This document shows, piece by piece, positions 493-6,514 of a DNA stretch of 7,052 nt. The position numbers and the translations under genes are program-made. Below the pieces are notes generated by a model that worked only from the letters and a program-made list of their open reading frames with translations, made no database searches and had not been told where the DNA came from. The stretch is taken from the NCBI GenBank assembly GCA_001799195.1, contig MGSU01000230.1, forward strand, positions 1 through 7,052. The letters run 5' to 3'. The DNA comes from Deltaproteobacteria bacterium RIFOXYA12_FULL_61_11. GTDB lineage: Bacteria > Bdellovibrionota_F > JAHFAK01 > YA12-FULL-61-11. Every line of letters starts with the position of its first letter. The stretch's first letter is position 1.

Positions 493-1836
493 TCAGGTTT
501 GAGCAATCACGGTACGCTGGATGACCAGAGTCTCGGCATCGAACACTTCGAGCAAGACGCTCAAGGGGTTCTCTCTCGCATACAGATCCTTCTTGCGCAA
601 CACCTTGGCGCGCATACCAATACCCTGAGGTTTGTAGTCGGTTATCCAATTCCGGAGATGTTCGAAGTGCTCTTCGGTGACAATCCCCTGCTCATGGATC
701 ACGAAGAAGCGCTTCCCCAAGCGAGAGACCTTCGCCGGGATTTCGTGTTCCTGCAGGTAACGGCAGAGGAGCCCTGCCAATTCGTGCAGGGCGTGGTCCC
801 CGAAGCGGGGGTCTTTCTGGTTGAGTTGCTCCACCACCTCATAGACCACCTCGAACACGCTGAAACGTTCGGGCAACTGAGGTTCGAGCCGGGCCAGGAG
901 CCGTTCCGGTTGTTCCAGTCCGGTCACCCGGTCATGGATGAACAGGAGGTTCTCGGCCTCGTTGAGTGCATTGGAAAGCAACTCCCGAAGGGAATGTGCG
1001 GCAGGGTAGTGAGCGTTGAGGAGCGATTCTTGTTCCGGGAAGGAGAACACGGCCTGACGGAGGTTGATGGAGTACTGGCGATCGAGGACTTGGAGTTCGA
1101 GTTTCGCCGGGAGCAGGTCTGCCAGGGGGAGCCCCGGCCAGGGACGGGGCCGGTAGGCCGTCCGTTCGGTAGCGAGGTCGTCCTGTTCTCCAAGAGGACT
1201 CGTCGTGTCGAATTCGAGCAGGAAGAATTCGTCGCCCTTGCGCGCTATCCAGACCGTATGCTCTCCGTGCGCTCGGACCAGGGTGAGGAAGAGCTTCTTC
1301 AGGAGGTAGTTCCCGATATACGTACCGTGATTTTTATTGAAATGGGCGAACTGTTCGATTTCCACGACGAGAATCCTGAACGGATGGAGTAGCTCTCCAA
1401 AGGTACGGTGCAATCGGTCGGGAAGAAGATCGTGGCGGAAAGCACCGGTCAACCGATCGAGGTAGCGTTGCTCCTGACCGATCTCTCGCGCGCGCCGCTC
1501 GAGGGTGTTGCGAGCTCCGAGACGGCAAACGATGGTGACCAGAGAGAATTCGTGGGTTCCGCACAGGGTGATGACCGCGCCGTCTTCCAATATCGCGGTT
1601 GTGACCTTGTGGTCATTGACCAGAGTCCCATTGGTCGAACCGAGATCATCCAAGCGGAAGTGGTTTTCCTCGTAACGAATCACGAAATGGTGTCTCGAGA
1701 CGAATTCCTCGGCAATACGGAAATCCGTGTCCCCGGGACTGCGGCCGACCACCACCTCGTCCGAGTCGAAAATCGCGCGCTGCCCGACATTTTTGCCGTC
1801 GAGGACGAAGAGGAGCAGACTATCACGCTCGATCAT
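493..1836 (-). CDS. FHA domain protein with two degenerate GGDEF-like domains
   Basis: This 447-residue soluble protein starts with an FHA phosphothreonine-binding domain (about 8-100): GRS at 31-33, SRHH at 47-50 and GSTNGT at 66-71 are all canonical. A first GGDEF-like domain follows (about 127-298), opening with DRLTG (127-131). It has EIEQF where the family has DIDxF, and KGDEF (200-204) preceded by Arg in place of GGDEF; a typical tail helix with LLSNALNEAENLL closes it. A second, more decayed copy (about 302-447) opens with DRVTGL and carries GKRFF (374-378) at the signature, so the catalytic acidic residues are gone. Diguanylate cyclase activity is doubtful in the first copy and very unlikely in the second. 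The likely role is phosphopeptide-guided scaffolding or nucleotide sensing (inference). ATG at 1836 is preferred over GTG at 1842 because GAGG (1845-1848) is 8 nt from the ATG but only 2 nt from the GTG. Confidence 0.85.
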   Translation of the reverse strand: MIERDSLLLFVLDGKNVGQRAIFDSDEVVVGRSPGDTDFRIAEEFVSRHHFVIRYEENHFRLDDLGSTNGTLVNDHKVTTAILEDGAVITLCGTHEFSLVTIVCRLGARNTLERRAREIGQEQRYLDRLTGAFRHDLLPDRLHRTFGELLHPFRILVVEIEQFAHFNKNHGTYIGNYLLKKLFLTLVRAHGEHTVWIARKGDEFFLLEFDTTSPLGEQDDLATERTAYRPRPWPGLPLADLLPAKLELQVLDRQYSINLRQAVFSFPEQESLLNAHYPAAHSLRELLSNALNEAENLLFIHDRVTGLEQPERLLARLEPQLPERFSVFEVVYEVVEQLNQKDPRFGDHALHELAGLLCRYLQEHEIPAKVSRLGKRFFVIHEQGIVTEEHFEHLRNWITDYKPQGIGMRAKVLRKKDLYARENPLSVLLEVFDAETLVIQRTVIAQT

Positions 1837-1844
1837 GCCCACAA

Positions 1845-1962: not shown

Positions 1963-3177
1963 TCACAAGGGTTCGGGGAGGTGGGGCTGCATTGTCCACC
2001 TTGGTCTGAGCCTCAAGTCCACCGCGGCTCCCCCGAGGTCGAGTAGCGAAAAAGCGAGTTCCCCCGGTCGAACAGGTTCGAAGACCACGGGCGCGTAGCC
2101 CATCCAGTAAGGACCACCGGGTAGTTCAAGGGGATACCAGGTCTTCGAACGGACTTCGAAACATTCCACTCGATCGGGGCTGGAGCTCTCTCCGCGCTCG
2201 AGGGCCACGTACACGCACGGAACCCCATTGGGATGCTCCGGAGGAACGTGGACCGCGAGGTATTCTCCTCGAGGTTCGTGCCAAGCACCCTCGAAACGAT
2301 GCTCTTCGGGTACCCAGGCTCCGGCGAAGATCAGGCTGTGTTGGCCAACCACCACGAGGTCGAGGTACCCGTCCAGATCGAAGTCGACGAAACCGCCGTC
2401 GATGAGGTGGAACCCCGGGGCCAGGGATCCGGTCGGATAGTAGGGCCAGGGCAGACCGTGCTCGGTTGTCACGTCCTCGACCCTCCCCTCGGCATCGAAA
2501 CGGACCAGAGCGCTCGGTCCGATATGTTTTTGAACATCCCCATAGGAAGCGAAGAAACAGGCCGGTACCTCGACCCGGTCGAGGGGCAAGCTCGCGCAGG
2601 CAACGCCTCGGCCGACCAACGAGAGCTCGAGGTCTCGCATGGAAAACTGCCCTTCCTCGTTGAACAGCAGGACCTGAGGGGTGGCATAGGGAAAGAGCGA
2701 GGTGCGACCGAACACCTTGTAATCCTGCCAATCCGCAACAGCCAGGACCAAGCTGGGCGGTTGTCCTGGTCCGTTCAGGTGTACCGCGGCCACGTCATGG
2801 ATGCGGCGGCCTTTCGTTTCCCCTTCTCCACCAAGCTCGAAACGGTACTGCCCACCTCCGGAAAGTTCCAGGACCACCTCGTGCCGGGACCAGGCAACGT
2901 CGTCTTCCACGCCGTCACCATCGAGTTCGAACCCCGCAACCCGCTGATCCGAAACAGTGGCCTCGGCCCGGACGACCTCGAAGCGGGGAGCGTACCTCGA
3001 GGAGAGCGCGAGAGACGTGATCCCCGAGGGTTCGTCACGCAGGGGATCGGGTGCACCGCAGGAAGGGAGAACCCCACCGACGAGAGCCGGGAGACCGAGC
3101 AAGCAGAGCAGTGCGAGCAGGTGCTGACGAGGGGGTACCCGCTCTCCGATCCGGTACGATGGTGTTGGTTGCCGCAC
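1963..3177 (-). CDS. Probable exported FG-GAP/VCBS-repeat lipoprotein
   Basis: The product has 404 residues. The N-terminus is a basic stretch, a hydrophobic core (LLALLCLLGLPALVGG, 20-35) and LPSC ending at Cys40, followed by Gly. This resembles a type II signal peptide, although Pro at -2 is atypical for a lipobox. Two calcium-binding-like loops of the FG-GAP/VCBS type are visible: LDGDGVEDD near 85-93 and DFDLDGYLDL at 265-274. Such repeats form beta-propeller blades in integrin-like and other surface proteins; the intervening sequence is beta-rich and could supply further degenerate blades. Cysteines at 194, 207, 321 and 339 might form disulfides in the envelope. Its substrate or partner is unknown. 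The start is GTG, supported by GAGG (3186-3189) 8 nt upstream; no ATG exists before residue 180. The gene begins 43 nt after ygiQ ends, so it is probably in the same transcript. Confidence 0.75.
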   Translation of the reverse strand: MRQPTPSYRIGERVPPRQHLLALLCLLGLPALVGGVLPSCGAPDPLRDEPSGITSLALSSRYAPRFEVVRAEATVSDQRVAGFELDGDGVEDDVAWSRHEVVLELSGGGQYRFELGGEGETKGRRIHDVAAVHLNGPGQPPSLVLAVADWQDYKVFGRTSLFPYATPQVLLFNEEGQFSMRDLELSLVGRGVACASLPLDRVEVPACFFASYGDVQKHIGPSALVRFDAEGRVEDVTTEHGLPWPYYPTGSLAPGFHLIDGGFVDFDLDGYLDLVVVGQHSLIFAGAWVPEEHRFEGAWHEPRGEYLAVHVPPEHPNGVPCVYVALERGESSSPDRVECFEVRSKTWYPLELPGGPYWMGYAPVVFEPVRPGELAFSLLDLGGAAVDLRLRPRWTMQPHLPEPL

Positions 3178-3220
3178 CCCGAGAACCTCGTTTGGGAAGG
3201 GTTGATCACCGGGCCGGACC

Positions 3221-5038
3221 CTAGCGCACTAGCCGGGAAAACACAAGTCCCAGGTTCGCACGACGCCTGCCGTTGCGTTTGGCACTGCGCTTGCGAGGGG
3301 TTCGGTGCCGCCGGTCCTGGGGTACTATGAGCCGCGCGGACCTGGGAACAAACTCGCCGACATTCGAAGGGGAAAGCACCGCGCGTTGGGCGGCCCGTCC
3401 CGAGACACTGCGCTCGACGAATAGGACATTGCCCCGCGGGTCTCGTCCCGTGTGGTACATGACCGTGGCCAACGTTCCCGGGGTCGGAGTGAAGATCTGG
3501 ACTTGCTCGGGCCGGAGGTGCAGATCCCTCTGGGCCGCCTCGGCCAAGGCAGTCATGTGGTAGAGGGTGCAACCCGGATGCGCGGCGATCAGGTAATACG
3601 AGAGATGTTTCTCCACGCCTTGCCGCCGAACTTCGTCTTGGTACCGACGGCGGAACTCCACAAGCCGCTCCCACGGGGGTTTGTTCATGAGACCGAGTAC
3701 CGCCGGGGAACAGTGCTCCGGCGCCAGTTTCAATTGGCCGCCGACATGGTTCCGGACGAGGTCGGCGAGATAGGCCGGACCCTGACGCTCGTCCGCCAGG
3801 ACTAGGTCGTGCCGAACGCCGGAGGCCACGAACACCTGACGCACGCCGGGCACCTTGGTCAGCGCTCTCAGCAAAGACCTCAGGGGAGCATGGTCGATCG
3901 GCAAGGCCGGACACGGTGCTGCGCCCAAACATTGGCGCTCGGCGCAGGGGCCAGAGGCTTGCTTGGCCGGGCAATCGAAACCATACATATTGGCGGTAGG
4001 ACCTCCGACGTCGGTGATGATGCCGCGGAAGCGGGGGTGCTCGGTCAGGGCCGCGGCTTCGCGGAGCAACGATTCCCTGCTGCGCGAGATCACGGTGCGA
4101 CCCTGGTGCACGGCAATGGCGCAGAAGCTACATCCTCCGTAGCAGCCTCGGTGCGAGAGCAAGGAGAACCGCACCGTGTCCAGGGCCCGGACCTTCCCCA
4201 CCTGGGAAGGATGGGCCTCACGCTCGAAACCGAGTTCATGGACTGCGTCCAGCTCCTCTCGAGCCAGCGGGGCAGCAGGTGGATTATGCACGACCCAGCG
4301 ATCGCCATGACCTTGGCACAATTGCCGGGCAGCAGGGCCCTCGGCATTCGCTGCAAAGAGGTGATGGGCGAGTTCGAAGGCCGAGGTATCCTTGGCAATA
4401 GCCTCGAAGGACGGTAACTCCAGAGCTCCTGCCGGAGGTTCCTTGCGTACGACGCAGAGTCCGGGCAGGTCGTGGAAGGACCTTCCCGAGGCAAGACGTT
4501 CGGCAAGGGCGAGCACGGCGCGTTCCCCCTGACCGTAGACCAGCGCATCGGCTTTGGCGTCGAGGAGCAGGGATCGCCTGACTCGATCCTCCCAAAAATC
4601 GTAATGGGCCAGTCGGCGCAGGCTGGCCTCAATACCGCCCAGGACAATGGGTCGTCGCGATCCGGCATGCCTGCGGATGAGATTGGCATACACGATGGAA
4701 GCCCTGTCCGGTCGGCGGTCGTTACGCCCCCCGGGGGTGAAATCATCCTCACGGCGGGGTTTGCCGAGGGCGGTACGGTTGGCGACGAGAGAATCGACGC
4801 AGCCGGCGCTGATGCCCCAGAACAGCTTTGGGAGACCGAGCCGGGTGATATCCTCGGGTCCGAGGAGTCCCGGTTGGGCCACCACGCCGACGCGATAGCC
4901 GGCCGCGGTGAGCACTTTTCCGATCACCGCAACCCCGTCGAAGGGGGTGTCGGTGTAAGCATCGCCGCTGACCAGGATCACCTCGCACTGTTCCCAGCCG
5001 CGAGCAGCGAGTTCCTCTCGGGTAGCCGGTAGGAACAT
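3221..5038 (-). CDS. ygiQ: YgiQ-family radical SAM protein (UPF0313)
   Basis: The product has 605 residues, near the usual size for the family. The N-terminal region carries the family hallmark SGDAYTDTPFDG (24-35), followed by a cobalamin-binding-like fold region (LFWGISAGC, VLGGIEASLRR). The radical SAM core has CYGGCSFC, giving the 4Fe-4S ligands Cys299, Cys303 and Cys306 in the CX3CX2C pattern. A second cysteine group (356, 365, 370, 376) follows, as is common in YgiQ proteins. Later conserved blocks include LKLAPEHCSP (436-445) and FTPTPGT (516-522). The last 30 residues are a basic tail rich in Arg and Lys. The enzyme is cytoplasmic and is expected to cleave S-adenosylmethionine to make a radical; its substrate is not established. 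ATG 5038 has GGAG (5044-5047) 5 nt upstream. It lies 48 nt after the PilZ gene, probably in one operon. Clustering with c-di-GMP-type genes is not explained. Confidence 0.93.
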   Translation of the reverse strand: MFLPATREELAARGWEQCEVILVSGDAYTDTPFDGVAVIGKVLTAAGYRVGVVAQPGLLGPEDITRLGLPKLFWGISAGCVDSLVANRTALGKPRREDDFTPGGRNDRRPDRASIVYANLIRRHAGSRRPIVLGGIEASLRRLAHYDFWEDRVRRSLLLDAKADALVYGQGERAVLALAERLASGRSFHDLPGLCVVRKEPPAGALELPSFEAIAKDTSAFELAHHLFAANAEGPAARQLCQGHGDRWVVHNPPAAPLAREELDAVHELGFEREAHPSQVGKVRALDTVRFSLLSHRGCYGGCSFCAIAVHQGRTVISRSRESLLREAAALTEHPRFRGIITDVGGPTANMYGFDCPAKQASGPCAERQCLGAAPCPALPIDHAPLRSLLRALTKVPGVRQVFVASGVRHDLVLADERQGPAYLADLVRNHVGGQLKLAPEHCSPAVLGLMNKPPWERLVEFRRRYQDEVRRQGVEKHLSYYLIAAHPGCTLYHMTALAEAAQRDLHLRPEQVQIFTPTPGTLATVMYHTGRDPRGNVLFVERSVSGRAAQRAVLSPSNVGEFVPRSARLIVPQDRRHRTPRKRSAKRNGRRRANLGLVFSRLVR

Positions 5039-5086
5039 GAAGTCTCCACGGAGGTTCAGAGTGAGCGGATGGGGACTACGAGGTGA

Positions 5087-5746
5087 TCAGACCTGATGGT
5101 GGCGCTGGCACCACTGGAAGAATTGTTCGAGGCGGGGCTTGAACTCGTCGGCATAGTCGACAAACTGGATGCCGACGCCCTTGTTCCCGTTGGGCCGAGG
5201 CGAGAGGTAGACAACCTTCCCGGTGCACTGCAGTTCGAGGTTGAGCCCGGGCAAAACCAAGGTGAAGGGGATGAGTTGGTCCTTTATACAATCCGCGCCG
5301 GTCTCGAAGAATAGCCCGCCCTTACTCAGATTCTTGGTGTACTCGACGGCGAAGTCGTTGAGGCTGGCAAACTGGACCTTTACTCGGAACTCATGGCGGG
5401 GAGCCTTCCGGTGCTCTGCAAGACGCTGCGTATCTCCCGAACGGTGGTCGATCAGCGAGAGCAATTCGTCGGGGATATCAAGGAACCGTAGGCCCATACC
5501 ATCCTTGTCCTTCTGGCGTCCGTGCCGGACGACCTCGCCGCGACAGCGGTACTTGGCCTGATCTTCGTCGAGCGCGAGTAAGAAGGTTGGTCTGGCGTTC
5601 CGGGGCATGGGATTCTCGGTGAGTACGAAGACCCCGCTCCGGCTGATATCGAAGGTGCGTTCGCGACGATTGCCGCGCAGTTCGGGATAACTGACCCAAC
5701 CCTTGCAAAGGACACGCGGGTGTTGACGTTTATCGAGGGTGGTCAT
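5087..5746 (-). CDS. Tandem PilZ domain protein, likely c-di-GMP receptor
   Basis: The product has 219 residues and two PilZ domains. The first (about 5-100) has RQHPR (7-11) and DISRSG (33-38). The second (about 111-215) has RKAPR (113-117) and NLSKGG (139-144). Both therefore keep the RxxxR and (D/N)xSxxG motifs that bind c-di-GMP in this family. There is no signal peptide or membrane segment, so it is cytosolic. No output domain is present; it probably works by binding a partner protein (inference). Similar PilZ pairs are known from myxobacterial-type paralogous families. The start at 5746 is chosen because GGAG (5755-5758) lies 8 nt upstream, and because the longer start at 5788 falls inside the -10 box of its promoter. 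It is first in the minus-strand cluster and divergent from the LpoB-like gene. Confidence 0.88.
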   Translation of the reverse strand: MTTLDKRQHPRVLCKGWVSYPELRGNRRERTFDISRSGVFVLTENPMPRNARPTFLLALDEDQAKYRCRGEVVRHGRQKDKDGMGLRFLDIPDELLSLIDHRSGDTQRLAEHRKAPRHEFRVKVQFASLNDFAVEYTKNLSKGGLFFETGADCIKDQLIPFTLVLPGLNLELQCTGKVVYLSPRPNGNKGVGIQFVDYADEFKPRLEQFFQWCQRHHQV

Positions 5747-5783
5747 GGAGAACACTCCAGCATCGTTTCCATTACGGGGCCGA

Positions 5784-5812
5784 ACCATAGCGCACTTCGG
5801 TCATTCTGGCAA
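5784..5812 (-). promoter_or_regulatory. Sigma70-type promoter of the PilZ-ygiQ cluster
   Basis: On the minus strand TTGCCA (5807-5812) and TATGGT (5784-5789) are separated by exactly 17 bp. The predicted start near 5777 leaves a leader of about 31 nt to ATG 5746. It lies back to back with the plus-strand promoter at 5843-5871, with 30 bp between the two -35 boxes, so a shared regulator could act on both. Confidence 0.6.
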
Positions 5813-5842
5813 GGCTTGAGGGAGCAAAACGGCGTTTTCCCG

Positions 5843-5871
5843 TTGACAACCCGGTGCTCTTCTCGAATAGT
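5843..5871 (+). promoter_or_regulatory. Sigma70-type promoter of the LpoB-like gene
   Basis: A perfect TTGACA (5843-5848), a 17-bp spacer and AATAGT (5866-5871, 4 of 6 to TATAAT). The predicted start near 5878 gives a leader of about 37 nt before ATG 5915. Confidence 0.65.
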
Positions 5872-5914
5872 CAGGCCGCATGCGATGTCGACAACAGTGC
5901 TGACGAGGTGTTCC

Positions 5915-6514
5915 ATGGTCAAGTTGTTGGTTCTCCTGCTGATGATGAGTCTCCTGGTTTCTTGTGGGCCCAAACGCACGGTCCAGCGCACCGATGTCAA
6001 TACCACCATCGACCTCAGCGGGCGTTGGAACGACACCGATTCCCGCCTCGTCGCCGAGGAGATGATCCGCGATTGCCTGCAGAGTGCCTGGATCGGCAAC
6101 TTCAAGAGCCAGAACAGCGGGAAGAGCCCGGTCCTCATCGTCGGCAGAGTGGCCAACAAGAGCCACGAGATCATCAACACCGATACGTTCATGAACGACC
6201 TCGAGCGCGTCCTGGTCAATTCGGGCACCGTGGAGTTCGTGGCTGACTCGACCCAGCGGCAACAACTCCGCTCCGAACGCGCCGATCAACTCCAGCACTC
6301 CCGCGATGACACGGTCAAGGGTCCGGGCAAGGAGATCGGCGCCGATTACATGGTACAGGGCTCCATAGCCACCATCGTGGACGAAGCCGGAGAGCAGAAG
6401 GTCGTCTTCTACCAGGTCGACCTCGAGCTGATCCACGTCGAGTCCAACCGCAAGGTCTGGATGCTGCAGAAGAAGATCAAGAAGATCGTCGAACGCGCGT
6501 CCAATTCCTGGTGA
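5915..6514 (+). CDS. LpoB-family lipoprotein (penicillin-binding protein activator-like)
   Basis: The product has 199 residues, close to E. coli LpoB. A short lipoprotein signal peptide ends in the textbook lipobox LVSC with Cys17, followed by Gly-Pro, predicting outer membrane anchoring. The mature protein has the family blocks IDLSGRWNDTDSRLVAEEMI (split here as residues 32-51), PVLIVGRVANKSHEII (72-87), NSGTVEFVAD (102-111) and GADYMVQGSI (142-151). LpoB in E. coli crosses the periplasm to activate the peptidoglycan synthase PBP1b; here the linker after Cys17 is short (about 15 residues), unlike the long disordered linker in E. coli, so the reach and partner may differ. GAGG (5905-5908) supports ATG 5915. 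An upstream in-frame ATG at 5885 would leave almost no leader and has no ribosome site. A second lipoprotein gene follows after 74 nt. Confidence 0.85.
   Translation: MVKLLVLLLMMSLLVSCGPKRTVQRTDVNTTIDLSGRWNDTDSRLVAEEMIRDCLQSAWIGNFKSQNSGKSPVLIVGRVANKSHEIINTDTFMNDLERVLVNSGTVEFVADSTQRQQLRSERADQLQHSRDDTVKGPGKEIGADYMVQGSIATIVDEAGEQKVVFYQVDLELIHVESNRKVWMLQKKIKKIVERASNSW

Follow-up and report, generated by a model that had tools for sequence, protein, structure and literature searches.

The locus examined here raises the question of whether an FHA domain can truly be followed by two successive GGDEF-like domains in one protein, and what such a protein would do. The window we analyzed is one complete contig of 7052 bases (G000:C230) from a genome that is 87% complete and spread over 342 contigs. 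The host phylum is sparsely sampled, with two species in the set we searched. The gene lies at 493..1836 on the minus strand and codes for 447 amino acids from an ATG at 1836. An alternative GTG start at 1842 gives an open reading frame of 449 amino acids (493-1842, minus strand), from which residues are numbered throughout. The ATG, with GAGG 8 bases upstream, appears from the sequence to be the likelier start. Because codon-position GC is uniform over the FHA region and both GGDEF-like regions, the entire frame looks like normal coding sequence.

The FHA domain (residues ~8-110; 1513..1821, minus strand) is complete, as the first-pass annotation had read it. PF00498 matched residues 30-93 with 66 bits against a cut-off of 20.7, and all of the motifs are present: GRS (33-35), SRHH (49-52), and GSTNG (68-72). 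The FHA domain of DgcB, an FHA-GGDEF diguanylate cyclase from Bdellovibrio bacteriovorus, contacts phosphothreonine through two arginines, a serine, a threonine, and an asparagine (PMC6733907). The phosphothreonine-contacting residues are kept in the window protein as R34, S49, R50, T70, and N71. The FHA part of the AF2 model has pLDDT values mostly of 76-91, and its fold matches the FHA domains of GarA, OdhI, and DgcB with Z scores of 15-17. We examined the start region and the upstream frame for a DgcB-type N-terminal tail with a phosphorylatable threonine. None is present ahead of the FHA domain, which starts at most about 8 residues from the ATG; the frame upstream of the GTG is open for 17 codons at most. 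Since the protein offers its FHA domain no N-terminal tail to bind, we infer that its phosphothreonine partner would be supplied in trans.

The first GGDEF-like domain (copy 1, residues ~123-300; 943..1476, minus strand) is recognizable in profile searches. PF00990 matched residues 127-214 with 28.2 bits (cut-off 23.8), covering only profile positions 2-92 of 161. The hhalign probability is 96%, and a fold match to the DgcB structure (PDB 6hbz) covers residues 7-215 of the protein. In the AF2 model, copy 1 contains helices at 137-148, 165-172, and 174-192 and strands at 155-162, 196-202, and 205-211.

We aligned copy 1 with 44 GGDEF domains and compared the conserved positions, taking the roles of the altered residues to be those of the established PleD-type GGDEF mechanism. 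The aspartate pair of the metal site is replaced by E161 and E163 (E-I-E for D-x-D), the first of these being D in 41 of the 44 homologs. A166 and N178 stand where 40 homologs have K and 41 have D, respectively, while K170 and T174 take the places of an aspartate and a histidine. The I-site arginine (R in 41/44) has become G193 and the I-site aspartate (D in 37/44) has become T196. The C-terminal lysine, present in 41 homologs, is E297. The Ser-x-Gly strand is lost (R262, A264) and is preceded by an insert of ~20 residues. The signature motif itself reads KGDEF (residues 202-206; 1225..1239, minus strand), with K202 at a first position that is G in 41/44. N169, G203, D204, E205, and F206 are kept. 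By analogy with VCA0965, KGDEF by itself would be expected to abolish the activity of copy 1, because only A, G, M, and H were active when the first GGDEF position of that protein was saturated (PMC3974145). The first-pass annotation had described loss of catalysis in a second, decayed copy; this holds, but its treatment of copy 1 as intact does not survive the residue comparison. Judged by these substitutions, copy 1 is already a pseudo-enzyme, and the protein contains no intact GGDEF copy.

The second GGDEF-like domain (copy 2, residues ~301-449; 496..942, minus strand) is far more diverged. We found no Pfam, NCBIfam, or PDB match to residues 301-449. A RhoGAP match at the C-terminus (E 0.086) fell below the cut-off and was judged to be chance. 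The GGDEF landmarks are nevertheless present at the correct spacing: DRVTGL at 304-309 (for DxLTG), N341, G348-D349, and, as the hairpin segment, SRLGKRFFVI (373-382). The altered motif within this predicted beta hairpin is GKRFF (residues 376-380; 703..717, minus strand). A profile built from 44 GGDEF sequences gave copy 2 a local score of 8.3 bits, which was reached by 1 of 10000 shuffled sequences and by none of 3000 real segments. Aligned end to end from DxLTG to GGDEF, copy 2 scored 16.5 bits; the highest scores were 10.7 among 5000 shuffles and 8.9 among 5000 real non-GGDEF segments, and the reversed sequence scored -18.8. Three further degenerate GGDEF domains that this genome encodes, none of them part of the profile, scored 37 to 84. 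The hhalign comparison of copy 2 gave a P value of 0.0009. The two copies also align with each other, staying in register between DRxTG and the hairpin of the motif, and the score of this alignment was matched by 1 shuffle in 3000. The clear GGDEF-derived half spans residues 303-383, and the C-terminal part is more diverged. Copy 2 has V333 in place of the first metal aspartate and K377 and R378 in its motif, leaving no acidic metal ligands. Its I-site positions are Q364 and E367, so there is no RxxD, while N341 and D349 are kept.

Structure prediction agreed with this assignment in part. In the full-length AF2 model, copy 2 contains helices at 312-322, 337-343, 345-365, and 390-403 and strands at 329-334, 370-375, 378-383, and 410-414. 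The order of these elements is that of a GGDEF domain. pLDDT was about 45-73 over residues 311-410 and lower beyond, in a run in which no homolog row covered the copy 2 region. Folded alone from its single sequence, copy 2 reached a pLDDT of 42.5 and gave meaningless Foldseek matches; Foldseek and VIA-align searches with the full-length model returned lists filled by FHA matches. Copy 2 is clearly GGDEF-derived in sequence, and its fold is predicted at low to moderate confidence. The proposal of two successive GGDEF-like domains was borne out, and the architecture of an FHA domain followed by both copies is confirmed as real. The separate profile searches suggested for each half succeeded in Pfam for copy 1, but copy 2 was detected only by the controlled 44-sequence profile. 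The suggested structure check of the C-terminal part gave the GGDEF element order in the full-length model, at low to moderate confidence; the model of the isolated domain was too poor to use. Strongly decayed GGDEF copies of this sort can escape Pfam-scale searches.

We surveyed other genomes for the same architecture. An FHA domain with two GGDEF domains was not found in 59 relatives or in the other genome of the host phylum. The tandem arrangement was likewise absent from the 195, 5, 3, and 40 genomes of the phyla of G029, G034, G025, and G013 (243 in total), and from the best 80 of 140 confirmed named loci in a search of 84,980 genomes. Scanning genome contigs with the full-length protein returned no relative, and plasmids gave no match. 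Nine named FHA-GGDEF proteins from Myxococcota, planctomycetes, and other groups, found by scanning with an alignment of the FHA and first GGDEF domains, each have a single GGDEF domain that ends at most about 30 residues from the C-terminus. In the literature, our search for "GGDEF-GGDEF" returned the term as used for contacts between domains. The homolog survey proposed in the first-pass annotation therefore yielded no second example; the single-sequence searches have low sensitivity for so diverged a second copy, which makes this absence weak evidence.

The same annotation had suggested that the second copy arose by internal duplication, and the comparisons do not bear this out. Among 45 domains ranked by similarity, copy 1 was second for copy 2, whereas copy 2 was 31st for copy 1. 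Copy 2 is about as close to GGDEF domains of other bacteria, and the tree is saturated. Because the ranks are asymmetric and the tree is saturated, these sequences do not distinguish internal duplication from fusion of two diverged domains.

Three genes lie upstream of the FHA gene on the same strand. They code for a weak FG-GAP-like protein that is probably exported (1963-3177, minus strand; FG-GAP match of 17.3 bits, below the cut-off, and no other assignment), a YgiQ-family radical SAM protein (3221-5038, minus strand), and a tandem PilZ protein of the TIGR02266 family (5087-5788, minus strand). Both PilZ domains contain RxxxR and D/NxSxxG-like motifs. The successive gaps are about 120, 43, and 48 bases. 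A single operon of all four genes is possible, an idea weakened by the gap of 121 bases before the FHA gene. An LpoB-like lipoprotein gene (5720-6514, plus strand) has a lipoprotein signal near MVKLLVLLLMMSLLVSC. It is listed with a GTG start that runs into the divergent PilZ gene, so translation probably begins farther downstream.

Over the whole genome, we counted 16 GGDEF matches, 25 FHA matches, and 12 kinase-domain matches; the FHA matches and 11 of the kinase matches scored above the cut-off. On contig C240, two canonical FHA-GGDEF genes are immediately preceded by a Ser/Thr kinase domain encoded on the same strand (2205-5103, minus strand; L044), suggesting a kinase to c-di-GMP operon. 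Canonical FHA-GGDEF paralogs at C329 have N-terminal tails with threonines, in motifs that we read as, for example, TEKTIF and NEKTII. A third locus (L041; C36:1500-5500) encodes, in frame +1 and beginning at about position 823 of the locus, a protein of 618 amino acids with an FHA domain, a degenerate GGDEF domain, and an AAA+/HTH module. Its AAA+ domain appears to be of the sigma54-activator type, an assignment made by reading the sequence rather than by profile search. Kinase, FHA, and GGDEF domains are repeatedly linked in this organism, as seen in the C240 cluster, the L041 protein, and the domain counts. Further degenerate GGDEF proteins are encoded on contigs C303 and C19 (L047 and L048); one has a GAF-like N-terminal part with a TSEF motif, and the other has a receiver-like one.

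We propose that the gene product is a catalytically dead, cytoplasmic FHA-pseudoGGDEF-pseudoGGDEF adaptor that combines phosphothreonine docking in trans with GGDEF pairing, and we consider this reading reasonably probable. The intact FHA domain and the loss of both GGDEF active sites can be read from the residues themselves. The FHA domain would bind a phosphothreonine on a partner protein. This partner might be a Ser/Thr kinase or one of the genome's canonical FHA-GGDEF cyclases, bound through its threonine-containing tail. The two pseudo-GGDEF domains would together serve as a protein-protein module, either packing against each other as a pseudo-dimer or engaging an active GGDEF domain. Such pairing by dead copies is possible by analogy with the degenerate E. 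coli GGDEF proteins CdgI, PdeK, and PdeR, which bind other GGDEF domains (PMC5635695). In this way kinase signaling would alter the site of c-di-GMP synthesis, or whether it takes place at all. The neighboring tandem PilZ protein, whose gene may share a transcription unit with the FHA gene, could plausibly read c-di-GMP in this pathway. A bolder version, to which we assign little probability, is a two-lobed pseudo-diguanylate cyclase that forms its own pseudo-dimer of inactive GGDEF domains, reads phosphothreonine, and heterodimerizes with the canonical FHA-GGDEF cyclases as a kinase-switched on/off control. If the adaptor reading is correct, the protein would be a compact pseudo-enzyme wiring Ser/Thr-kinase signaling to c-di-GMP, and it would come from a phylum that has been sampled sparsely and is rich in kinases, FHA domains, and FHA-GGDEF cyclases.

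The main rival to the adaptor reading makes the tandem pair a receptor for nucleotides or c-di-GMP: the FHA domain would position the protein, and GTP or c-di-GMP bound at a residual site would change its shape. PopA and CdgA are examples of degenerate GGDEF proteins that have been described as c-di-GMP receptors (PMC3974145). Copy 1 retains the guanine-contact asparagine N169 together with D204, E205, and F206, and copy 2 retains N341 and D349. These remnants have to be set against the disappearance of the I-site arginine and aspartate from both copies, the lysine at the first glycine of the copy 1 motif, and the loss of the C-terminal lysine and of metal-binding aspartate. We therefore regard a receptor as unlikely. 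Of the two functions that the first-pass annotation had offered, a phosphothreonine-linked scaffold is the better reading and nucleotide sensing the weaker option, because copy 1 has lost its I-site and half of its guanine-contact pair and copy 2 has lost its metal ligands.

Retained residues could also be taken to mean that copy 1 is still an active, unusual cyclase, with KGDEF and glutamates at its metal site, and that copy 2 is a built-in half-partner. The change from D to E is conservative, N169 and D204-F206 are in place, and single changes at the first glycine can be tolerated (PMC3974145). Lysine is not among the active VCA0965 variants (PMC3974145), a number of further positions that contact substrate have changed along with it, and the Ser-x-Gly strand is lost behind its 20-residue insert; we give this reading hardly any credence. 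The opposite extreme is a functionless, decaying pseudogene of an FHA-GGDEF cyclase that was extended by a second decaying copy. In favor of decay, both copies have lost many conserved residues and no orthologue was found in the genomes searched. A pseudogene is nonetheless very unlikely: the frame stays open for 449 codons, codon-position GC is even across both copies, the ribosome-binding site is good, and the FHA domain is fully conserved.

We compared the window protein, read as an adaptor, to known systems. All of its parts are familiar, and what is new is the combination of domains rather than the kind of system; the general interest is modest for that reason. The closest known protein is DgcB (PDB 6hbz; PMC6733907), which has an FHA domain followed by a GGDEF domain in the same order and with the same spacing. 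By sequence profile, DgcB was the top match over the full length (E 3.2e-71), and it ranked first by fold. It has one catalytically competent GGDEF domain with an I-site, whereas in the window protein neither an active site nor an I-site is intact and an extra GGDEF-like domain is present. The intact GG(D/E)EF motif and metal-site aspartate that mark a DgcB-type cyclase are missing from both copies. DgcB also has an N-terminal tail of ~31 residues whose phosphothreonine is bound by its own FHA domain, a feature that the window protein lacks. CdgI and other degenerate E. coli GGDEF proteins likewise have no intact A-site and are said to contact other GGDEF domains (PMC5635695), but they have neither an FHA domain nor a tandem pair, and CdgI keeps the I-site that the window protein has lost. 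GarA and OdhI share the FHA fold and its binding residues (Z 16-17); each is a lone FHA domain with a regulatory tail and no GGDEF domain. The L041 protein of the same genome has the same succession of an FHA domain and a degenerate GGDEF domain, and differs in its output, which is a sigma54-activator-type AAA+ and HTH module where the window protein has its second GGDEF-like domain.
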